Shown piece after piece: positions 1 to 28,843 of a stretch of DNA of 29,543 nucleotides; positions within the stretch are counted from its first letter, which is position 1, and the number at the start of each line of letters is the position of its first letter. Source of the DNA: a virus. The stretch lies in IMG/VR virus record IMGVR_UViG_3300037041_000539, positions 1 through 29,543 of that record; one strand, given 5' to 3'. Position numbers and translations under genes: made by a program. Below the pieces are notes generated by a model. It did no database searches, was not told where the DNA came from, and saw only the letters and a list, made by a program, of their open reading frames with translations.

Positions 1-2155
1 TACCCCCTCCTGTGTTAGTCCCTTGGAACCCGTAAATTCCTTTATTTGCTCTTGTTTGACCTGTAACTGTTAAATTACCATTAATGGTTCCTGATGTTCC
101 AGTAAATGCTTGTAAACTTGTATTTCCTGTTACGGTTAATTCACCATTAACAGTCCATCCTGTCACTGTATTAATAAGTGCGGTTAAATCTGACTGACCT
201 GTTTGTTTAATTGTGAAAACATTATTATTGTATGTAAAAGCAGTCACATAATAATTGGGGTCAACAGGTAAATTCTGATATGTTGTTGCCGATATTGTTG
301 TTGCGGTAATAGTATTTGCACTGATAGAACCATCAGCCCTAACAAACATTGTTACAGTTCCACCTGAATTTAACGTCTCAAATAAACTTGTAACGTTATC
401 GGCAGTTCCCGAACCATTCTTGATTGATACAGGTCCTAACGTTGAGTTAGTTATAATCTCAGGCGTTGTTGAGTTATTATATGCTTGTTGTAATGTTGTT
501 GTAGATAGACCCGCAGTACCACCTAATAATTCACCAAATTTAGAAACAGGTGTGAAAATCGCATAATCAGTATTGGTTAATGGTTGACCATCATCAACAA
601 TATCATTTCTTACCGAAATAATCCCAATTAAAACTCCTGTTGTTTTAGCATTCGGATAAACAACAAATGTTTCAGATTGAATTCCCGAAACCGCCTGAGC
701 TAAAGTATTATAAACAGTTTGACCGTATAATACATTAATAGTCCCTGTAGGGTATAAATAAACTCTCTGATTAGTTGCATCATTACTAGCAGCACCACCA
801 ACCGATGTAATAACACCACCAACATCATATTTTGTAGGGTCAATCACTGTAACAGCACTACTTGTCCCACCTGTTTGTGTTCTGTAAAAAAATGATGCTG
901 TCACTTTTGCCGAAATAGTAACACTATTTGGGTTTAATTCGTTTGTGGTCCAACCGATACCATTAGACCAAAGAGTTCCTGACGATGTATTAATATTTAA
1001 ATTAGACCCATTTGGTGTAACCAATACTCCGTCATTAATTATTTTGATAGGTGACCATAAATCACGCAACGCCGACATTGGTGATACATCATAATCAACG
1101 GTATTATTAACCGCAAGAATAGTTGACCTATTAGGATGAACAACTTTACCTAAAAATATATTTTCTCTCCTTTCTTGAGGTGATGGAAATGTCGTTTGTT
1201 GATATAATGTACCCCCACTATTAACTAAAAAGTACGTGGCATCCGCAGAACCAATATTAGTTATACCAACATTTGTTCCACCACTATAATAAATGTTTAA
1301 AACTAAAGGATTTGTTGCATTTTCATTTGTATTATAAACAACCCAACCCCTCATTGGTGACACATTAATAGTCGTTGTTGACGCAGTTGTTGCACCAGTA
1401 TAAAAATAAGCACCTGTTGATATTGTATTACCCAACAATACGTTAACCTCTTGTTGTGTTAAACTTTGTAATGGGTTTTCATTTGTGATTACAACAAGTA
1501 TTTTACCATTTGTTGGGCTTGACTCCAAGCAATAACCTACTGTTGAGATTCTTGATGTGAATTCTATATTATTTGGGTCATTTGTTAAAGCTCCATCAAT
1601 TGTATCAGATAAGAATACTTCTTGACCTACAGTAAATGCTGTTGTATTTAAATCTCTAACAATACCAAAATTAGTCATAAAACCATATTCACCACTTGGT
1701 ATGTCATGGGTTGCAACACCAGAAGTTTGAGCTAAACTATCTGTAAATGTTGCACCTAATTTTGAGGCGTTTGCTAATGCAACCGTAGGTACCCCACTAG
1801 TTGCACCCGTTATATGTAAAACCTGTCCGTTAAGTATTGTTGTAGGTAAACCATTATAAACCCTAATTAAAGATTCTTGACCCAAATTAACCGTAACATC
1901 ATTTTGATTAGTTATTGGTTTATATGATAACGCATTTTCATTATAATCATAGTACATTGTACCCCCCGTTGGACTAGTGGTACCTGAAGTATTAAAATCT
2001 ATTTGATTAACATTTTTTAATATATTATCTCTTGTTATCTGTTTGGAGCTACCCGTTGGGTCATCCGTTGGGTCACTGACATCAACCACATAAAATAAGG
2101 TATTACCTGACGCGGCGGATAATGAAGGTAATTGAGTTAATTTTTCGTTAGCCAT
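1..2155 (-). CDS. Tail fibre / virion structural protein, 5' part (runs off left edge)
   Basis: An open frame enters from the window edge and has its ATG at 2153-2155, giving at least 718 residues with no stop. The N-terminus (MANEKLTQLPSLSAASGNTL, then FYVVDVSD) is of the kind that opens many phage tail and appendage proteins. The rest is rich in Thr, Asn, Gly, Ser and Val, with repeated beta-type turns such as NGELTVTGNTS and NGNLTVTGQT near the edge, and the segment ATTYQNLPVD that I recall from tail proteins of environmental phages. This composition fits a trimeric beta-structured fibre or baseplate appendage. The C-terminal receptor-binding or chaperone part lies outside the window. An ATATTTAT box lies about 36 nt upstream, shared with other virion-like genes. 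The structural role is well supported. The exact component (fibre, whisker, adhesin) is not. Confidence 0.8.
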   Translation of the reverse strand, partial: MANEKLTQLPSLSAASGNTLFYVVDVSDPTDDPTGSSKQITRDNILKNVNQIDFNTSGTTSPTGGTMYYDYNENALSYKPITNQNDVTVNLGQESLIRVYNGLPTTILNGQVLHITGATSGVPTVALANASKLGATFTDSLAQTSGVATHDIPSGEYGFMTNFGIVRDLNTTAFTVGQEVFLSDTIDGALTNDPNNIEFTSRISTVGYCLESSPTNGKILVVITNENPLQSLTQQEVNVLLGNTISTGAYFYTGATTASTTTINVSPMRGWVVYNTNENATNPLVLNIYYSGGTNVGITNIGSADATYFLVNSGGTLYQQTTFPSPQERRENIFLGKVVHPNRSTILAVNNTVDYDVSPMSALRDLWSPIKIINDGVLVTPNGSNLNINTSSGTLWSNGIGWTTNELNPNSVTISAKVTASFFYRTQTGGTSSAVTVIDPTKYDVGGVITSVGGAASNDATNQRVYLYPTGTINVLYGQTVYNTLAQAVSGIQSETFVVYPNAKTTGVLIGIISVRNDIVDDGQPLTNTDYAIFTPVSKFGELLGGTAGLSTTTLQQAYNNSTTPEIITNSTLGPVSIKNGSGTADNVTSLFETLNSGGTVTMFVRADGSISANTITATTISATTYQNLPVDPNYYVTAFTYNNNVFTIKQTGQSDLTALINTVTGWTVNGELTVTGNTSLQAFTGTSGTINGNLTVTGQTRANKGIYGFQGTNTGGG

Positions 2156-9489: not shown

Positions 9490-11147
9490 GGTAAATCATC
9501 AAATTCATAAAAATTTAAACTATGTCCCGCTTGAACGGCTCGGTTATCCCACTGAATAAAACCATCGTCACCAATATTCAAACCACTTTCAATTTTTGAC
9601 ATATTCTTAAATGTAACTTGTATTTTAGGTAAGGTAAATAATTTCTGTTTACATAACTCCTTTATCCTCAAATCCAAAATTCTTAGAGGTTCATCCCATT
9701 CAGGTTCTGGAATCATATTTGATTTTCTCTTGGTTTGAACTCTTTTTAAGGTTATCTCTTTAGTTTCCCAATCAGTACATACCAAATTATATTCAATAGT
9801 TAATTTATTCTTACCTGTGTTTGAACCCTCCCTCAATGAGATTATCATCGCCGAAGGTTTATTAATATAAGTTCTAACACAGTTATTTTGTGTCATTGAC
9901 TCAAAGTTATACTCAGAACTGTTGGTTAATAAGACAGGGTAATAATCAATTTCATTCACCGCAATATTTTGTTCAACCCATCCCTTGAAATCGTTACCGT
10001 AAAATCTATCATATCTACATTTACTAAGGTCCGCAACTTTCTCACTCCATTCGTAATGCTCGTCATTAAAATCATCAAGAGTTTTAGATTTCCATTTCAC
10101 AGGATTAATATCCGATAATCTAAGTTTAAACCTTATGTGGTCTGTAAATGTGGAAAGGTCAATCTTTTCATCCAATATCAATTTAAAAATTTCATAAGCA
10201 TTATTTTTTTCAGCTTTAGTATAATCGTTCAAATTATAATATGTACCACCATAATAATTACTAAACTGTAGTATTTTAACAATGTCTTCGTCAGGTTTTG
10301 ATAGGATATATTTTTCACCAAATACTTGATATGCAAAGTGTAGATATTCAAGATTAATAACTTTAACCAAATGTAAACATCTTTTAATTTTATCACCTTT
10401 TAGTTTATGTAAATCCATATAAGAATCTATAAACTTGTAGTTAACTTTCTTTAGTAACTTTTTAGTAGGTTGTGGATAAACACAAATGAACGCATCCCAA
10501 TTGTTTGGTAGTTTAGCCCCGCTTTTCTCCAAGAAGTATTTATAGAATCTCATTTTGGGTTCTCCTGAATACTTTTCAGTGCCAGGAATACCATTAACAA
10601 ATGATTCAAGCATATTTGATTGACTATCTGAGTGTCCCAAACTACCATTAATATAACAATTGATTGACTCAAGCCAATCACTAGTTAATAAAACCCTGTT
10701 GCATTTTTTAATCGCCTTTCTCTTTAAGTGATAATTTATTATTTTACCATAATACAGGGCATTTGTCTTTATGTTATATGATATATATTCAAGGTTAGTT
10801 CTTACTCTGAAATACTTTTTACCAACATTTCTACCCCTACTGTATCTAAATATTTTAATACTAACCTTATCCTCGTTTTTTGTAACCGAGGCAATTCTCC
10901 TTGACATAGAAACTTTAGCAAAAGGATTTCCATAATTCCCCTTGAATGCTTCTTCGTTATTACTAATCGTTTTGTTTTTAAAAAACCCATTAGTTAACAT
11001 ATACCGTCTAGATTGACGCAATTTAACCCCAAAAGGTTCAGGGTATAAGTCATCTTCGGGAGTATCTACATACTCATCCAATGAGTTATTGTCATCGTAC
11101 AACCACACATCGTATGTAACCTTAATATCTTCAAAAAGTTTCTCCAT
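9486..11147 (-). CDS. PcfJ-like protein
   Basis: 553-residue protein. The C-terminal part carries the pattern seen in PcfJ-family proteins of plasmids and mobile elements: MTQNNCVRTYI (418-428), then PSAMIISLREG (431-441) and KLTIEYNL (448-455). This corresponds to the family HCVxxY...SLR...TIE core. The N-terminal 400 residues are basic and helical, without other motifs I can name. PcfJ was named from a conjugative plasmid and its biochemistry is unknown. It is the first gene of a four-gene overlapping operon with a 119-residue unknown, thioredoxin and glutaredoxin. The ATG (11145-11147) lies only 4 nt after a perfect TAnnTTTG box, suggesting a leaderless transcript. The assignment is by local pattern only and could be wrong. 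Confidence 0.6.
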   Translation of the reverse strand: MEKLFEDIKVTYDVWLYDDNNSLDEYVDTPEDDLYPEPFGVKLRQSRRYMLTNGFFKNKTISNNEEAFKGNYGNPFAKVSMSRRIASVTKNEDKVSIKIFRYSRGRNVGKKYFRVRTNLEYISYNIKTNALYYGKIINYHLKRKAIKKCNRVLLTSDWLESINCYINGSLGHSDSQSNMLESFVNGIPGTEKYSGEPKMRFYKYFLEKSGAKLPNNWDAFICVYPQPTKKLLKKVNYKFIDSYMDLHKLKGDKIKRCLHLVKVINLEYLHFAYQVFGEKYILSKPDEDIVKILQFSNYYGGTYYNLNDYTKAEKNNAYEIFKLILDEKIDLSTFTDHIRFKLRLSDINPVKWKSKTLDDFNDEHYEWSEKVADLSKCRYDRFYGNDFKGWVEQNIAVNEIDYYPVLLTNSSEYNFESMTQNNCVRTYINKPSAMIISLREGSNTGKNKLTIEYNLVCTDWETKEITLKRVQTKRKSNMIPEPEWDEPLRILDLRIKELCKQKLFTLPKIQVTFKNMSKIESGLNIGDDGFIQWDNRAVQAGHSLNFYEFDDLP

Positions 11148-11151
11148 ATCA

Positions 11152-11159
11152 CAAATATA
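11152..11159 (-). promoter_or_regulatory. Bacteroidota-type -7 box (TATATTTG)
   Basis: TATATTTG on the minus strand is a perfect match to the Bacteroidota TAnnTTTG element and ends 4 nt before the PcfJ-like ATG. No TTTG is visible at the expected -33 distance, where the DUF932 terminator sits instead. Its location right after that terminator fits a new transcription unit. Confidence 0.6.
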
Positions 11160-11184
11160 AGAAAAGATGGGGAATTAATCCCCA
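11159..11184 (-). terminator. Rho-independent terminator after DUF932 gene
   Basis: On the minus strand TGGGGA - TTAAT - TCCCCA forms a 6-bp GC-rich stem followed by TCTTTTCTT. It begins 6 nt after the DUF932 stop, and its T-tract abuts the next promoter box. Confidence 0.75.
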
Positions 11185-11189
11185 CCTTA

Positions 11190-11951
11190 TTAAATCATTG
11201 TTTCAGCAAGTTCCCAAAGTTGGGTGTTGATTTGATTCACCGCTGAGATACCTTTAAGTCCTTTAAGAGCGGTCTTTCTACCAGTTGGTGTCTCGTAAGA
11301 TAGTCCTCCACGAACATACTTCTCTTGAACCACATTCATTACTCTCCAAAGGTCGTCACCTTCATCGTCCACACGATTAGGAACCAATAGTCCCTCAACC
11401 TCCATTGCGGAAAGAACTTTACCTGTCTTCCATCGGAACTCAGCAGATTTTCTAACGAAATCAATCTTTTCGTCAGTAGTCATTATTTTTTCCATCATAC
11501 GACCAACAGATGTCTCAATTTTAGGAAGACGCTTTGCGAAAGTCTCAGTCAATCGTTTAACCTCATCCAAGTCAAACTTTTGGTGACGAACTTTAAGGGA
11601 GTCAGAGATTGCCGTAGGAACCGTAAGACCATTAGAACATACAAGGCGGTGTAGTCCCGCACTAACTTGGAATGTTGCAGTTCCATTATGAGAGTTTCGG
11701 ATGATAGCCTCAACCAAAGTATCACCAACTTTAGGTAATTCACCGTTACGGAATTTCAATTGGTGAAGTGCGTGAACACCTCTACCTGTTTGAGTTACAC
11801 TAGATAGTTCCCACCCTTCTCTTTGGAAGTTTTCAAGGATGTCTTGTGTTGGTACGAATACATACTTGTCAGACACCTTTGGTGAAGGACCTGTTGCGAA
11901 TACTGATGGTGCTAGTTCTTTGATTTTCTCTACGGTGAATTCTGCTTTCAT
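11190..11951 (-). CDS. DUF932 family protein
   Basis: 253 residues of the DUF932 type found in phages and plasmids. It contains YVFVPTQDILENFQREGWEL near residue 30, followed by an H-x-L-x-F strand, the central VSAGLHRLVCSNGL (about 97-110, the most conserved part of the family), and a helical C-terminus with the WRVMNVVQEKYVRGG segment. The biochemical role is unknown. It is transcribed alone, with a TAnnTTTG promoter 25 nt upstream and terminators on both sides. It stands out in base composition: a sample of its coding sequence is about 43% G+C against roughly 30% around it, with many CGT arginine codons. This suggests either selection for high expression or recent acquisition. Confidence 0.88.
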   Translation of the reverse strand: MKAEFTVEKIKELAPSVFATGPSPKVSDKYVFVPTQDILENFQREGWELSSVTQTGRGVHALHQLKFRNGELPKVGDTLVEAIIRNSHNGTATFQVSAGLHRLVCSNGLTVPTAISDSLKVRHQKFDLDEVKRLTETFAKRLPKIETSVGRMMEKIMTTDEKIDFVRKSAEFRWKTGKVLSAMEVEGLLVPNRVDDEGDDLWRVMNVVQEKYVRGGLSYETPTGRKTALKGLKGISAVNQINTQLWELAETMI

Positions 11952-13758: not shown

Positions 13759-14601
13759 TTATTTATAATTCATAATGAGTAACTCTTCACCCATATTTTG
13801 TTTAGTCCCTTTTTTAGCCGCAGCGGCCTTTGCGAACTCTTTCATCTCCCAAGTATAAATGTCCTTTGGAAACCACTCAGATAATAAAGGAAAATCATAA
13901 TAAGATAATGAAAATTTACCTTTAACATGTTTCAAAACATTTGCCAATCTTTCGTGGTCCTCTCTATCAAAGTCGTGGTTGGAGTAATAGTTCTCAGTAC
14001 GATAATAAGGTGGGTCCAAATAGATATAGGTCTTTTCAGAATCATATTTGTTGATTACATCCTCAAAGTCCATATTCTCAACATCCGTTATTTTTAGGAA
14101 ATGCTCAACCCAATCAGGTTTACTCAACTTATCTCTGAATGTAAGATACTTTGATTTATATTTACCTTTTAGGTCAATGTAAGATGAGGTTTCAGGTTTG
14201 GACCCTGAGAATACTTGTGTTAAAATATAAACATACTTAGCCGCGGTTTCATAATCACCAGGGTTTACGCTGAAACCTTCGTTAAATATTTCAGCCTGAA
14301 AGCTGATAAATTGTTCTTTCAAATGAATAGGTGTATTCTCCACCCCTTGTTGTTGACACTCAATAGAGTTTATTGCTCTCAACAATTCCTGTGGATTCTG
14401 AACACATTTAAATAGATTATAATTGAGTGGATTGAAATCATTATAAACAACTCTTTTTAAATTGGGGAACTGCTTCAAATCCATATTAAAGAAACACCAG
14501 TACATTCCCCCAAATGTCTCCAAGTATGTTTCCATATCTTTATCATAGAAAGGGACAATCCACTTTCCAATCTTACTCTTACCTCCGATATAACTTAACA
14601 T
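13759..14601 (-). CDS. dam: DNA adenine methylase (D12 class)
   Basis: 280 residues from the ATG at 14599-14601. An upstream in-frame ATG at 14637 would add 12 residues, MVYLSYYCKKSK, that do not belong to the family. MLSYIGGKSKIGKWIVPFY is the typical D12-class opening, followed by ETYLETFGGMYWCFF (SAM-binding loop, an FxGGG variant), VYNDFNP (53-59) and the catalytic DPPYY at 196-200 (N6-adenine type). The C-terminus has the usual SLSYYDFP and late basic helices. It methylates adenine, GATC being the common target of this class, to protect phage DNA from restriction or mark it. Specificity cannot be read here. No partner endonuclease is adjacent. The upstream region has a TATTTATCG box. Confidence 0.93.
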   Translation of the reverse strand: MLSYIGGKSKIGKWIVPFYDKDMETYLETFGGMYWCFFNMDLKQFPNLKRVVYNDFNPLNYNLFKCVQNPQELLRAINSIECQQQGVENTPIHLKEQFISFQAEIFNEGFSVNPGDYETAAKYVYILTQVFSGSKPETSSYIDLKGKYKSKYLTFRDKLSKPDWVEHFLKITDVENMDFEDVINKYDSEKTYIYLDPPYYRTENYYSNHDFDREDHERLANVLKHVKGKFSLSYYDFPLLSEWFPKDIYTWEMKEFAKAAAAKKGTKQNMGEELLIMNYK

Positions 14602-14624
14602 TTTACTTTTTTTACAATAATACG

Positions 14625-14631
14625 ATAAATA
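14625..14631 (-). promoter_or_regulatory. TATTTAT box before the methylase
   Basis: TATTTAT on the minus strand lies 23 nt before the methylase ATG. It lacks the first A of the ATATTTAT 8-mer. A TATTATTG (one mismatch to TAnnTTTG) follows at about 14616-14623, so this gap may hold two overlapping promoter types. Confidence 0.35.
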
Positions 14632-14727
14632 AACCAAAAAAGCAAGTCCGAAAAAAAAAATTAAACAAAGATTCTCTATCCTATTATAAAAAGCGTTATA
14701 TTAGCATTATAATTAAAACCATTCACA

Positions 14728-15138
14728 ATGAAAACAATCTTAACTTATCTCATCGTAATCCTATCATTCAACTCCGTAGGTCAGACAACTGATTTTCTAA
14801 AACGACTTTTCTATGGAACGATTTCAAAAGATGAATTTTTGATTTCTCAAAAATATTCTGATATGGATTCTGTTCAAGGATTTTCATACAATCCATATAT
14901 CTACAATAAACGAGTAGAAATCGTTGATTGGGTTTGGACTACTGATTTCAAGCAATACCACGATACAACCAAATACTATGTGGTTTATGACTTAATTACA
15001 CCGTATGATAACAAATATGTGGAATATGTTGAAGTGTATGATAAAGTAACTATGTCTATGGTTAGAACATTTTCAGCACCATATTTAGAAAATACAAGTA
15101 TTATAGGTGTAATCTATGATACCGATTTGGGTAATTAA
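14728..15138 (+). CDS. Secreted protein of unknown function (136 aa)
   Basis: 136 residues with a clear Sec signal peptide: a short basic start (MKTILTYL), a hydrophobic core (LIVILSF) and a cleavage region NSVGQ-TTDF. Ending at Gly/Ala-Gln is typical of Bacteroidota signal peptides, so the mature protein should reach the periplasm. The mature part is Tyr- and Asp-rich with beta-type strands (WVWTTDFKQYHDTTKYYVVYD) and no known motif. It is a lone plus-strand gene with its own 126-nt upstream region (TATATTAG, one mismatch from TAnnTTTG). Its last 4 nt overlap the Q/A-rich gene tail to tail. A phage-encoded periplasmic protein could act in superinfection exclusion or lysis timing, or it could be a host-derived cargo gene. 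None of this is shown. Confidence 0.75.
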   Translation: MKTILTYLIVILSFNSVGQTTDFLKRLFYGTISKDEFLISQKYSDMDSVQGFSYNPYIYNKRVEIVDWVWTTDFKQYHDTTKYYVVYDLITPYDNKYVEYVEVYDKVTMSMVRTFSAPYLENTSIIGVIYDTDLGN

Positions 15139-15734
15139 GCTTTTTTGAAGTTTGGATTAATTCCTGACATAGCAATTGCTTCTTGATACTTCTTCAACTT
15201 ATTAGGGTCATTCTTAACGGCTGGCCCTATTTTATCAGGAGTTAAAGTACCGAAACTATTTTTGACATTTGTTTTAACCATCCCTAAAAATTGTGCAATT
15301 GTATTTGCTGGTATAGAACCATTATCATAATTATTAATAAACTCAACCCATCTGTATTCATTCCAACCTGATGGGTCTATAGGTTTAGAAACAGTTAAAG
15401 GTATTTGTTTTGTTGGGTCATTACTCGCTGGTAATACACCTACAAAAAGAAAAGGAGTCCCTTTAGAACCAACAACGATTGACGAATTTTCGCTATATTT
15501 TAATATAACAACTTGTGTTAATTGATATTCAGTTGTAACAAATAAATCTTTAAATACTTTGGCAGTATTTACAGGCATTTTAGGTATCTCCACATTAGCG
15601 GAAACCTTTGGTTGAGCCTGTGACTGAGCTTGTTGTTGGGCCTGTGGCTGAGCTTGTTGTTCAGAGATAACAACCCCCTTTTGATACCCCAAAAGGTATT
15701 TCATATAATTAAGTTCTTCATTAATTGCTTTCAT
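15135..15734 (-). CDS. Q/A-rich protein with capsid-targeting-like N-terminus
   Basis: 199 residues from the ATG at 15732-15734. The longer in-frame start at 15776 adds a Phe/Tyr/Lys-rich stretch that overlaps promoter-like sequence and is unlikely. The N-terminus (INEELNYMKYLLGYQKGVVI, then SEQQ) is a helix plus a hydrophobic-x-Glu site. The same EExNxxxxLLxY pattern recurs at the C-terminus of the 584-residue protein at 19429-21183. Next comes a Gln/Ala/Pro linker (about residues 25-42), then a folded domain to the C-terminus, with VVGSKGTPFLFVGVLPAS in its centre and a helical tail. It could be an internal virion protein whose leader is removed by the prohead protease. A TATTTAT box lies 12 nt upstream of the ATG. 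Function unknown. Confidence 0.72.
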   Translation of the reverse strand: MKAINEELNYMKYLLGYQKGVVISEQQAQPQAQQQAQSQAQPKVSANVEIPKMPVNTAKVFKDLFVTTEYQLTQVVILKYSENSSIVVGSKGTPFLFVGVLPASNDPTKQIPLTVSKPIDPSGWNEYRWVEFINNYDNGSIPANTIAQFLGMVKTNVKNSFGTLTPDKIGPAVKNDPNKLKKYQEAIAMSGINPNFKKA

Positions 15735-15746
15735 AATCTTTTTTTT

Positions 15747-15753
15747 ATAAATA
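15747..15753 (-). promoter_or_regulatory. TATTTAT box before the Q/A-rich gene
   Basis: TATTTAT (AACTATTTATAAAAAA on the minus strand) sits 12 nt before the ATG at 15734, in the same setting as the ATATTTAT boxes at 13727 and 21199, followed by an A-rich leader. Confidence 0.4.
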
Positions 15754-15776
15754 GTTAGATAATTAAAAAAAATCAT

Positions 15777-15784
15777 TACCTTTG
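15777..15784 (+). promoter_or_regulatory. Bacteroidota-type -7 box (TACCTTTG) for ncRNA
   Basis: TACCTTTG matches TAnnTTTG. A weak -33 match (TTAG) lies 18 nt upstream. No protein gene of normal length follows, but a structured region and a terminator do. Confidence 0.55.
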
Positions 15785-15789
15785 TATTG

Positions 15790-15940
15790 TTGTTATGATT
15801 GATTTCTCACAACAGGATGTCAGAACTCCTAACTAACAATCTGACCATCAAGTATCAGGTGAGGTGATACGGGTTGATTACCCCAACTTAATAAGTGAAA
15901 CAATCTGTTAAAACCCCATTGGTTCAATGGGGTTATTTTA
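15790..15940 (+). ncRNA. Candidate structured non-coding RNA
   Basis: About 150 nt between a TAnnTTTG box and a hairpin terminator, with only mini-ORFs of 13 and 16 codons, and visibly more GC-rich than its flanks. By eye it folds into a closing helix (15797-15810 with 15895-15905: GATTG/CAATC and TTTC/GAAA separated by bulges). This encloses three hairpins: 15816-15824 with 15840-15849 (GATGTCAGA / TCTGACCATC, one bulged C), 15852-15857 with 15865-15870 (GTATCA / TGATAC, loop GGTGAGG), and 15871-15874 with 15880-15883 (GGGT/ACCC). The terminator stem follows at 15912. It matches no RNA class I know. The same hairpin could also end dnaJ transcription from the other strand, so part of the structure might serve that role. 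Confidence 0.55.
15912..15940 (+). terminator. Rho-independent terminator of the ncRNA
   Basis: A perfect 9-bp stem AACCCCATT / AATGGGGTT with a 5-nt loop, then ATTTTATTT. On the minus strand TTTTAAC follows, so it may also stop readthrough from dnaJ. Confidence 0.78.
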
Positions 15941-15982
15941 TTTACTTATAAAATTATTAGTAATATAATTGTTTATTATTAA

Positions 15983-16147
15983 ATGAATTTTATGACACCA
16001 GAAACTAACACAGAATGTAAAACTTGTAAGAAAGGGTTAAGTACGTCACATTATCTGTTATTTGGATTTTCTCTTTTTATGTTATCAACATCAATTTATG
16101 GTACAATTAAATTAATTGGAAATATTATTACTTACTTCAGTCATTAA
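15983..16147 (+). CDS. Small CxxC membrane protein (54 aa)
   Basis: Short ORF of 54 residues with ATG at 15983 (a second ATG at codon 4). The N-terminus is hydrophilic with ECKTCKKG (a CxxC pair at residues 12 and 15). The remainder is one hydrophobic segment ([20 protein letters not shown]) and a short helix. I recall similar CxxC-plus-one-membrane-helix proteins in related phages. It would be a single-pass inner-membrane protein with a cytoplasmic or metal-binding Cys pair. It lies downstream of the ncRNA terminator by about 40 nt and overlaps the dnaJ stop by 4 nt tail to tail. Function unknown. A holin or antiholin role is conceivable but unsupported. Confidence 0.65.
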
Positions 16148-17052
16148 TCTTTCACAAATTTAACGTGTTGTTTTATAAAAAGGTCTCCACCGTGAAATCC
16201 CTTCCCCTTTACTCTTAAAGGTTTTGTTGTATCAAATTCTTTAGGTAAGTTAATTGAGATATCCCCATTAGGATGTGGAATATTAATAATATCACTTTGT
16301 AAATCACTTAAATCAAAGAATTTATTATATATTAAATCATTACCCAATTTTTCCCAATTTTCTTCAGGAATAATATTAAGTTTCATAACCAAATTCCCGT
16401 AACCAGAACTACTATAATCCCCGTAACCTTTCATCTTTAAAAACTGAGACTCATCCGCCCCATGAGGTATTTTAATTTTAATTTTCTCAATTATAGTATT
16501 TGTGGTTTTTCCATTACATTTAAAACAAGCCTTCGTGTAAACCATACCTGAACCTTTACAGTTATTACAAGCTTGTCTAACTATTTGACTAAACATACTC
16601 CCTCCTACGTTAAACGTTTGGTATCCAGCTCCTTGACACACATGACACGTTTCTTTATCTCCACCGCCACCATTACAATCTCCACACATAATCTCCCTTG
16701 AATATACAATTTCTTTCCCATCACCTCTGAACGACTCTAACACTCCGATGTTTACGTGTAATACCTTATCTGGAGCTCCTCTTCTAAATCCTTGGGAATA
16801 CATATTAAACATCTCTGAGAACGGGTTAAACCCTCCACCCATACCACCAAAAGGGTTGTTTTTTTGACTATCATATTGAGCCCTTTTATTTTCGTCACCT
16901 AAGACATCGTAAGCCTCAGAAATTTGTTTAAACGTATCTTCAGAACCACCCTTATCAGGATGATGTTTAACCGCCAATTTTCTATATGCCTTTTTTATCT
17001 CGTCCTGCGTGGCAGTTTCCGTAACCCCTAATGTTTCGTAAAAATTACTCAT
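16144..17052 (-). CDS. dnaJ: DnaJ (Hsp40) co-chaperone
   Basis: 302-residue type I Hsp40. The J domain is at about 3-62, with HPD at 31-33 and the QISEAYDVL helix. A short Gly/Phe region follows at about 66-85. The zinc-binding domain has all four CxxCxGxG repeats (C123/C126, C136/C139, C162/C165, C176/C179, the last ending GKT). The C-terminal substrate-binding domain includes [18 protein letters not shown] and LRVKGKGF. Cellular DnaJ is usually 370-390 residues, so the linker and end are shortened, but every functional element is present. It would stimulate host DnaK for folding or remodelling of phage proteins. No DnaK or GrpE is in the window. The start has a GGAA 3 nt before ATG. The gene is divergent to, and almost abuts, the plus-strand gene at 17070. 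Confidence 0.95.
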
Positions 17053-25101: not shown

Positions 25102-25902
25102 TTATAGATAGTCAAACAAAACCGAACTTTCATTCCTTAATTTTCTAAGAGCCTTTTCTTTAATCTGTCTAACTCTTTCTTTAGTTAAATCAAAATCAGT
25201 CCCGATATCTTCTAATGTTCTTGGGGTACCAGTCAACCCAAAATAATCACCAATGATTACTCTTTCTCTATCATCCAAAATATCAAGGATTTCAATTAAT
25301 TTTTGTTTAAGAATATCTTTACTATTAAAGACCTCATCTGGCATCTCAGCATCATCATTTTTAATAATATCAACCAATGTATCACCCTCCTCATTGATGT
25401 TCATATCCAAATCAATCATGCTTGGTAAATTTTGGAATTTATCATCTAATTTACCTCCATTAGCTTCAACTTCTTTCTTGGCTTTATGTAAGTCTTGGAC
25501 AACGTTAACTGGAAGTCTAATTGTTCTCGCGTTATCGTTTAGGGACTGTAAGATTGATTGTTTAACCCACCATACCGCATATGAAATAAAACGTAAGTCT
25601 TTACTCCAATCAAAGTTTTTAATGGCCTTCATAAGTCCTAAATTACCCTCAGCAACTAAATCAGGGAAATCTAATCCTTGATTTTGATATTGTTTTGCCA
25701 CCGTAATAACAAATCGCAGGTTACCTTCCAATAATTCTTTATAAACTTTGTTTTTCTGACTATCGGATAAATCACCTGTCTTCATCAAGTTAGATAGTTC
25801 TTTTTCTCTTTCAGGTGTCATCACTTTTATCTTACGAATATCTTTAAGATAAAGTTGGATTTCTTCTTGATTAATCGGAATTGATAAGTTTTTTTCTTTC
25901 AT
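25102..25902 (-). CDS. Phage-encoded sigma-70 factor of the primary (RpoD) type
   Basis: 266 residues. Region 1.2 is at about 13-40 (EIQLYLKDIRKIKVMTPERE). Region 2 is at 60-130 with NLRFVITVAKQYQNQGL, DLVAEGNLGLMKAI, RFISYAVWWVKQSI and TIRLP. Region 4 is at 200-266 with DDRERVIIGDYFGL and the helix-turn-helix TLEDIGTDFDLTKERVRQIK (229-248). This matches the short group-1 sigma of Bacteroidota (about 287 residues). Region 3 is reduced: only about 70 residues separate regions 2.4 and 4, and they do not keep the usual region 3.0-3.1 pattern. The conserved -10-reading residues suggest it recognises TAnnTTTG-like boxes, perhaps with altered specificity. It is transcribed behind the 177-residue gene from a strong host-type promoter, ending at a terminator. 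Confidence 0.94.
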   Translation of the reverse strand: MKEKNLSIPINQEEIQLYLKDIRKIKVMTPEREKELSNLMKTGDLSDSQKNKVYKELLEGNLRFVITVAKQYQNQGLDFPDLVAEGNLGLMKAIKNFDWSKDLRFISYAVWWVKQSILQSLNDNARTIRLPVNVVQDLHKAKKEVEANGGKLDDKFQNLPSMIDLDMNINEEGDTLVDIIKNDDAEMPDEVFNSKDILKQKLIEILDILDDRERVIIGDYFGLTGTPRTLEDIGTDFDLTKERVRQIKEKALRKLRNESSVLFDYL

Positions 25903-26454: not shown

Positions 26455-26485
26455 CAAATATATAAACTTTTTACTGACCAACAAA
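26455..26485 (-). promoter_or_regulatory. Near-consensus Bacteroidota promoter (TTTG-N19-TATATTTG)
   Basis: On the minus strand TTTG (26482-26485), exactly 19 nt, then TATATTTG (26455-26462), followed by a 14-nt gap to the ATG at 26440. This fits the TTTG/TAnnTTTG promoters of Bacteroidota. It overlaps the 3' end of the gp46-like gene and drives the sigma-factor pair. Confidence 0.75.
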
Positions 26486-28843
26486 ACTAATATTTTCTTC
26501 TTTTCTAATTTTAATTACATTGTCCGCCCAATTTGTAACCAATGGATTATGCGTAATTACAAATATTTTTTCAAAATACTCCTTAATTTTAACAAAAAAT
26601 TCAGAAACCATATCTAAATTATCATTTGATATCTTACCGAATACTTCATCAAAGACGATGATATTTGGTTTTGGTAGTGAACAAATTTTACTTAATACTG
26701 CTCTTAATGATAATGACGCAATTGTTCTCTCATAACCAGAACCTGAAGCCATATTTTTTTCAACCTGAGTATTATTATCAATCATAACAAAATCAACTTC
26801 ATTCTTATCGTTAATCCTAATCTCTAGTCTGAAATGTGAACTATCCTCAAGTAACCTTTGTAATTCAGAGTTAATTAATGGCATCATAGTCCTCATAATC
26901 ATTTTGGTGATACCATTCTTACCATAAATTTCCAAGTAGATTTTATATATCTTTTCTTGTTCACCCTCCTGTTCAATCTTTTTAATCTTATCAAGATTAT
27001 TATTAATTTCTTGAGTCAAGGTTTCTATCTTATAGGTATTTGTTGAAATTATTTTTTCTGTTGAGCTTTTTAGTAAGTTAAGTTCATCCATTCTTAAACT
27101 TGACTTAACTAATAAACCATCAATCTTTTCATTTTCAGCAATTTTATCTTGAACCTCATTATATTTTTTAATCTTGTCTTTTAGATTGTTAATCTTAAGG
27201 TCACAACTTTCAATATTTAGCTCATACTTTTCTTTAATAAGTTTGTTCTTTTCATACTCATCAAACTCCTTCTTTAATCTAACGAATGTTTGCTCAATGC
27301 TCGTTAAAACCTGCATTGTTGTCCAAATAGTGTCTTTTTGCACGATAAATCCGTCAAGTTCGGCAATTTTTGCATTGGTGATTGCAGCATTCATTAACTC
27401 AATACCACAATGTTCGCATTTAATTCCCCCCTCAACAGAACTCTTTAATTTCTCAACCTCTTCTATTTTGGTTTCAAGTTGAATTAACTCTTTGTTAAGT
27501 TTGGTGTATTCTTCTTTAACTTTATCGTGTTCATCCTCTTTGTAAAATTCAGTTGGTTCAATAACATTAAGCTCCTCAATTTGTTTAACTATACCTTCTT
27601 TTGTCTTTTCAAGTTTTTCAATCTCAGTTGTTACAGTTGTTGGGACCAATGAACTTATCTCGGTATCTATATCATTATGTTTTTGTTTTAACAATCCATC
27701 ACGATACTCTTGTCCTTTGATAATTCTATTTTGAATATCAATAAGTGATGTGTTTGCAGTTTCAATCTCAGTCTTTAACTCATCAATAGATTTATTTTTC
27801 TCTTCATTATCGGTCTTTAGTTTCTCACTACTATAGACATTAGATATCATTGATTTGGAGAACTCACCATAGATTTCTTTCCCAATCTCTTCTTTTCTTT
27901 TTAGAAACTCAAGCCCCATAAATCTTGATAGGACCTGACCTCTTGCCGTTGGTTTTGAATCAATCAGGTCCTCCAAGTTTGTTGCGGTGGTAAGAATCGT
28001 CATTAAGAAATCTTCTTTTGTACCAATAGATGTCTTTATAAATTTTTCAGTCTCTCTTCTTTGTTCACCAGTAAAATTCTGTAAACTACCATCAGATAAT
28101 CTTTTGTAGAAATCCAATTCAGTTTTAACATTCCAATCCCCACTCTTAGATTTTTTACGCTCAATATTTCTTAGGATGATATATTCTTCACCATCAATTA
28201 ATACCTCACCTTTAACCGCAACCTTGTTCTTATCTGTAAACCTATTAAAGATTTCTTCTGCTTTAGTTGTTTTTGTTGTTTCGTTAAAGAATAAGAACAA
28301 TAATAAATCTACTGTTAAGACCGTCTTTCCACCAAAGTTTGGCGGATTTGACTCCACCACCGATATCCCATTACACTTATCAAAATCAATCTTTTGATTC
28401 TCACCATAAGAAAGGAAATTTGAAAACTCAATGTTCTTAATGAACCATCTTTTAAATGGTTGAGCCTCATCATCGTTCAATGACATTTTGTTGTCAACCG
28501 CAGAATCAATAGCTAAAACTTTATCTAGATAATCAGTTAAATTCTTATTTTCTAGATATTGTTTAGCTAATTCCTGTTGATAATTCTTATCCAAGATGTT
28601 AAATGAAATGTCAACATTATGTGTCGTTTCCTTATCAACTTTGGTTTTGGTAATTACATTAACATTAGTTGTTTCATATTTCTTTTGGAAATAATGTCTA
28701 ACACTTTTAATCTTCTCTTGTGTAAAGTTTTCAGCGTAGTCCTCCCACACCACTTGTATGTATGGATTATCTAAAGTTGTTAATGTTACTTCTTCTGTCA
28801 TTTTTGTGTAATTAAATTTTGGTGGTGGATTAAATAAATCCAT
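26471..28843 (-). CDS. SbcC/Rad50-like recombination ATPase (T4 gp46 type)
   Basis: 790 residues. ATPase halves flank a long coiled coil: an N-terminal nucleotide site at 164-174 (ESNPPNFGGKT), a zinc-hook CEHC at 476-479 in the coiled-coil apex, the ABC-type signature ASGSGYERTIASLSLR (699-714), Walker B NIIVFDEVF (727-735) and an H-loop VITHN (762-766). With the gp47 (SbcD) nuclease it would resect DNA ends for phage recombination-dependent replication. Two oddities are visible. There is an extra N-terminal region of about 130 residues before the usual FIKNIEFSNFLSYGE start. The P-loop also lacks the first Gly (Pro at that position). GAAGGG sits 9 nt before the chosen ATG, and the upstream gene ends 7 nt away. 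No gp47 is in the window. Confidence 0.92.
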   Translation of the reverse strand: MDLFNPPPKFNYTKMTEEVTLTTLDNPYIQVVWEDYAENFTQEKIKSVRHYFQKKYETTNVNVITKTKVDKETTHNVDISFNILDKNYQQELAKQYLENKNLTDYLDKVLAIDSAVDNKMSLNDDEAQPFKRWFIKNIEFSNFLSYGENQKIDFDKCNGISVVESNPPNFGGKTVLTVDLLLFLFFNETTKTTKAEEIFNRFTDKNKVAVKGEVLIDGEEYIILRNIERKKSKSGDWNVKTELDFYKRLSDGSLQNFTGEQRRETEKFIKTSIGTKEDFLMTILTTATNLEDLIDSKPTARGQVLSRFMGLEFLKRKEEIGKEIYGEFSKSMISNVYSSEKLKTDNEEKNKSIDELKTEIETANTSLIDIQNRIIKGQEYRDGLLKQKHNDIDTEISSLVPTTVTTEIEKLEKTKEGIVKQIEELNVIEPTEFYKEDEHDKVKEEYTKLNKELIQLETKIEEVEKLKSSVEGGIKCEHCGIELMNAAITNAKIAELDGFIVQKDTIWTTMQVLTSIEQTFVRLKKEFDEYEKNKLIKEKYELNIESCDLKINNLKDKIKKYNEVQDKIAENEKIDGLLVKSSLRMDELNLLKSSTEKIISTNTYKIETLTQEINNNLDKIKKIEQEGEQEKIYKIYLEIYGKNGITKMIMRTMMPLINSELQRLLEDSSHFRLEIRINDKNEVDFVMIDNNTQVEKNMASGSGYERTIASLSLRAVLSKICSLPKPNIIVFDEVFGKISNDNLDMVSEFFVKIKEYFEKIFVITHNPLVTNWADNVIKIRKEENISFVGQ

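Follow-up and report, generated by a model that had tools for sequence, protein, structure and literature searches.

A putative pseudoknotted small RNA family with a predicted promoter and terminator in uncultured phages

Phages encode structured, stable non-coding RNAs such as T4 RNAs C and D and the phi29 pRNA. The window analyzed here, the whole 29.5-kb virus record IMGVR_UViG_3300037041_000539 from IMG/VR, raises the question of whether another such RNA is encoded on the plus strand between two minus-strand genes, one for a 213-aa protein (15135–15776) and dnaJ (16144–17052), and what it might do. The initial annotation proposed a new structured RNA with a promoter and terminator in this gap, where it saw no gene of normal size. 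The latter holds, although a conserved 54-aa gene (15983–16147, plus strand) follows the terminator of the RNA unit; its product has a CxxC pair and probably a membrane segment, and the gene is kept beside dnaJ in related phages. Relatives of the 213-aa gene were sought among viral sequences, and none were found.

The RNA core of the window (88 nt; 15814–15901, plus strand), delimited with covariance models R1 and R2, is predicted to fold into an H-type pseudoknot and three further hairpins, with an accessory 5′ hairpin ahead of them. In the pseudoknot, AGGA (15814–15817) pairs with UCCU (15827–15830) to form stem S1; the UCCU strand lies in the loop of helix P1/S2 (GUCAGA/UCUGAC, 15819–15824 with 15840–15845). 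Hairpin P2 (GUAUCA/UGAUAC with the 7-nt loop GGUGAGG, 15852–15870) is followed by P3 (GGGU/ACCC, 15871–15883, placed from the type A alignment described below), P4 (ACUU/AAGU, 15886–15896), and, directly after P4, a conserved unpaired GAAA (15897–15900). The fold energy of the single window sequence is weakly unusual (z = −1.84).

Relatives were gathered with pattern scans, covariance models, and a structural descriptor and were found on about 90 uncultured phage contigs: approximately 21 of type A, the type of the window (a count that includes the partly degenerate L265 and L303), approximately 66 of type B, and 3 of type C. Two viral contigs reached via dnaJ (L002 and L003) carry the same RNA as the window, and an exact pattern retrieved L082, in which two complete units stand head to tail behind one promoter. 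Model R1, built from four units, recovered L013 and L033 besides L044 and L084, and when entire records were scanned it also gave L103 and another unit in L013; a degenerate P2-P3-P4 pattern yielded L109, L111, L113, L116, L117, L121, L122, L124, and L125. Type B was detected by an architecture-only script in L083, which comes from the same phage as type A contig L044. The type A model also matched a type B locus, L146, and a pattern drawn from L083 and L146 matched 61 stretches, all real except L167; a search with the phage sigma gene discussed below gave six more type B contigs with small core changes, for a total of approximately 66. The type B model led to type C, with its differing P1 (CUUAAU/AUUAAG), and placed its type A matches precisely on the known loci, with E values from 0.007 to approximately 1. 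Because the type B model scores type A in place and the type A model scored L146, the subtypes were taken to be homologous, and we regard them as a previously uncatalogued RNA family with at least three subtypes.

In 2.1 Mb, every match of the architecture descriptor was a family member, and 0.5 Mb of shuffled sequence gave none. Some pattern matches were dismissed as chance since they lacked the architecture, namely six from genome_contigs (L126–L131) and the viral matches L114, L115, L120, and L167; a match of model R3 within the window (11138–11243, minus strand) overlaps coding sequence and was also taken as chance. In L103, a 19-codon open reading frame upstream of position 1500 (plus strand) sits behind a TATCTTTG box, and its stop codon overlaps the RNA core; the same reading frame occurs in L111 with one silent change. 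Separately, L217 has an approximately 200-nt stretch (around 1300–1640, minus strand) with tRNA-like ends (AGUCAGG...CCUGACU) that ARAGORN did not call and that is perhaps an intron-bearing tRNA.

Types A, B, and C share one architecture, an H-type pseudoknot followed by P2, P3, P4, and GAAA. In the first four type A units, all alignment cells pair, with two-sided changes at 5 of 20 pairs. Eight distinct type A rows gave 98% of cells paired, compared with 30%–41% when the 3′ partners were slid, and two-sided changes at 11 of 20 pairs (3/6 in P1, 4/6 in P2, and 3/4 in P4); the eight-row alignment was fitted to the covariance model and hence favors the fold, whereas the four-unit alignment was not. 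In type B, P2, P3, and P4 covary, and 10 pairs have two-sided changes. An absence of covariation had been named in advance as grounds for abandoning the structure; the relatives covary against shuffled and slid controls, which excludes this, and a chance fold was rejected. S1 reads AGGA/UCCU, GGGA/UCCC, or GGGA/UCCU in type A members and GGGU/ACCC in types B and C, with a clear two-sided change at one position within type A. Since shuffled sequence yields S1-like pairing in 3%–33% of trials per subtype, the case for the pseudoknot is that all subtypes have it. Compared with the fold initially annotated, the comparative model gains this pseudoknot and loses the bulged closing helix (GAUUG/CAAUC), which most relatives lack. 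A P2-P3 loop-loop contact and mimicry of the 16S anti-Shine-Dalgarno by ACCUC were considered by eye, and both were inconsistent across subtypes.

Conservation is concentrated in the core. Between the window and L002, identity is 98% in the core, 88% in the terminator and 3′ flank, 56% in the 54-aa gene, and 38% in the 213-aa gene region. Type B cores hardly vary across 36 nt, which partly reflects a scan pattern that fixed more than half of these bases; five P1 positions that the pattern left free are also invariant, and the sigma protein encoded alongside is approximately 70%–82% identical to that of the window. The sequence of the P2 loop varies among members.

A Bacteroidota-type −7 box, TACCTTTG, is located at 15777–15784 (plus strand). 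The box alone is not significant (58 occurrences of TANNTTTG in the window versus 47 expected), and the upstream TTTG-type element of the window is weak. Many relatives' copies are preceded, at a consistent distance, by a TAnnTTTG box, with +1 five bases past the box and mostly with TTTG approximately 20 nt further upstream, which agrees with the promoter as first annotated. Applying the published position of this box, −12 to −5 relative to +1 (PMC9723704), places the predicted +1 of the window at 15789, which is exactly where a 25-nt leader hairpin begins (GUUGU/ACAAC, 15789–15813, plus strand). The leader hairpin is flush with the predicted +1 in the window, L002, L082, L121, L044, and L084, with differing paired sequence (in L002, GUUG/CAAC was read by eye, but the script favored another pairing). 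Other promoter-driven copies, including those of type B, have no such hairpin. The type of promoter suggests a Bacteroidota host.

At the other end, a predicted intrinsic terminator (15912–15943, plus strand) comprises a 10-bp stem (15912–15921 with 15925–15934) and a U-rich run, as the initial annotation had described. Terminators follow 14 of 14 terminal type A units and 38 of 41 distinct type B copies, compared with 1.75% of random positions; the script did not class the type C one as a terminator. L161, L177, and L198 are type B variants with no nearby terminator according to the script, and GGAA replaces GAAA in L161 and L177. The minus strand also folds (z = −2.26), and the terminator could act on both strands. 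Transcription from the minus strand only, as a dnaJ 3′ UTR, had been put forward as a finding that would undo the annotation; this reading was discounted, as the recurring plus-strand promoter, the flush 5′ hairpin, and the terminator speak against it.

Searches of known RNAs gave no counterpart. No Rfam 15 family, ribozymes and abiF (RF03085) included, reached the covariance-model gathering threshold, and the best sub-threshold matches in the window had E values of 2 or worse. It is this Rfam result only that sets the RNA apart from T4 RNAs C and D and phi29 pRNA, which are likewise structured non-coding phage RNAs. No convincing homolog was found in isolate phages by blastn with four queries, in plasmids searched with type B, or in a literature search for a type B sequence; 395 Bacteroidota genomes gave no matches to R3 or a 17-base type B pattern, in a weak search with no positive control. 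From sequence comparison, a new structured RNA with a promoter and terminator, absent from Rfam, is thus well supported, and the detail of the annotated fold was partly wrong. With this RNA, a clade of uncultured phages, probably of Bacteroidota, gains a covariation-supported family. Metagenomic candidate structured RNAs (PMC2864571) and GOLLD and ROOL (PMC12286853) were likewise recognized by comparative genomics and covariation, with function unknown at discovery; the RNA described here is much smaller than GOLLD and ROOL (PMC12286853) and is not in the Rfam catalog searched.

The genomic setting of the RNA is variable except for one association. dnaJ adjoins the RNA in some phages and is 34–65 kb away in others, and RNA copies occur alone, in 3′ UTRs, or as tandem doubles with two units in one transcript. 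Type B copies start just past a stop codon or behind their own promoter; the gene downstream of them varies and, at about half of the loci, is oriented toward the RNA. In all 44 type B loci with a visible sigma-70 gene, that gene precedes the RNA on the same strand at a distance of 5 to 2904 nt, and at least 12 type B copies begin 2–17 nt after its stop codon, with more after other genes. The window has its own sigma-70 gene (25102–25902, minus strand; Pfam regions 1.2, 2, and 4; phrog_351), which is 76% identical to that of L163 and has no RNA copy behind it, although its relatives stand directly upstream of type B copies. Type B is present at 7 of the 80 sigma loci nearest to that of the window, so the RNA is inessential to the clade as a whole. 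Twelve of the searched type A or type C records carry the sigma gene, and for this reason the RNA family appears to belong to one clade of phages with their own sigma factor.

By sequence, the window's unit has what is expected of a stand-alone small RNA: its own promoter, its own terminator, and a conserved fold. We hypothesize that 15789–15943 (plus strand) encodes a stable, trans-acting small RNA of approximately 150 nt whose folded module binds a conserved partner, a reading to which we give an even chance. Action in trans is suggested because the location of the RNA moves, the downstream genes vary and are often convergent, and stand-alone copies exist; binding of a partner is suggested because conservation sits in the folded core, with no conserved single-stranded seed, and units are doubled. 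The single conserved partner would most likely be a host or phage protein that the core titrates or directs. Tandem doubling would provide more sites for binding, and the RNA ends would be shielded by the 5′ hairpin on one side and the terminator on the other. From the position of type B behind the sigma gene, which is an association only, the phage transcription apparatus is a candidate for both the partner and the timing cue. A bolder reading, which we consider possible but improbable, is that the family forms a functional class of its own among phage RNAs, as a new ribozyme that cleaves itself or as an RNA that captures core host machinery, for instance RNA polymerase, in connection with the phage sigma factor. 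The near-invariant pseudoknot, the tandem doubles, and the place behind a phage sigma gene make specific, inexpensive tests feasible.

Several other functions were weighed against the partner-binding small RNA. A regulatory RNA whose loops base-pair with phage or host mRNAs is unlikely: the promoter, terminator, and 3′ UTR positions are typical of such RNAs and the variable P2 loop is compatible with pairing, but conservation lies in the folded core rather than in an unstructured seed.

A decoy antitoxin, directed against a host RNA-neutralized toxin or abortive-infection nuclease (type III toxin-antitoxin or AbiF-like), is the next in order of probability and is rather unlikely. ToxI, CptI, and the AbiF antitoxin RNA (RF03085) likewise consist of units with pseudoknots or hairpins, in some cases arranged in tandem, and have an intrinsic terminator after them. 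With type III antitoxins the family shares an H-type pseudoknot, judged from complementarity in types A, B, and C, as well as one or two units and a terminator after the array (PMC5086642); it also resembles the two-motif AbiF antitoxin RNA (PMC12373285), and phages are known to evolve pseudo-ToxI (PMC5086642). Its units are approximately 92 nt with three extra hairpins, however, in one or two copies rather than a tandem array of 34–50-nt pseudoknot repeats, and abiF was not matched. In place of the downstream toxin gene of type III systems, the next gene is often convergent, and Pfam and PADLOC found nothing toxin-like among the downstream proteins examined. Racrs are likewise small, promoter-driven phage RNAs and work as decoys, but they copy CRISPR repeats (PMC10651486); the present RNA has a more complex fold.

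Strong conservation and tandem copies are equally compatible with a ribozyme and with a binding module. A new self-cleaving ribozyme, with a pseudoknotted core that cuts its own transcript to process 3′ UTRs or tandem units, would also account for the size of approximately 90 nt and the many invariant unpaired bases. It is nevertheless improbable, given the separate promoter and terminator around many single copies, the lack of an inferable cleavage site, and the lack of a match to any Rfam ribozyme. An element that stabilizes or terminates mRNA 3′ ends, acting only in cis, would explain the type B copies immediately past sigma and other stop codons, but for many copies a dedicated promoter lies a short way upstream, which makes this improbable. 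It is very improbable that the RNA is a riboswitch or attenuator controlling the following gene in cis (the 54-aa gene at 15983 in the case of the window). In the window and several relatives, a same-strand gene does lie beyond the terminator, but the RNA moves among varied settings, and at many loci the genes that follow it are unrelated or convergent, with no constant class of regulated gene and, by eye, no conserved pairing alternative to the terminator.

Two further genes of the window have relatives near RNA loci elsewhere. One encodes an SbcC-like recombination nuclease subunit (phrog_77; 26471–28843, minus strand) that is 67% identical to one near a type B locus, and the other a D12-class adenine methyltransferase (13759–14637, minus strand) whose relatives in other phages lie close to RNA loci.
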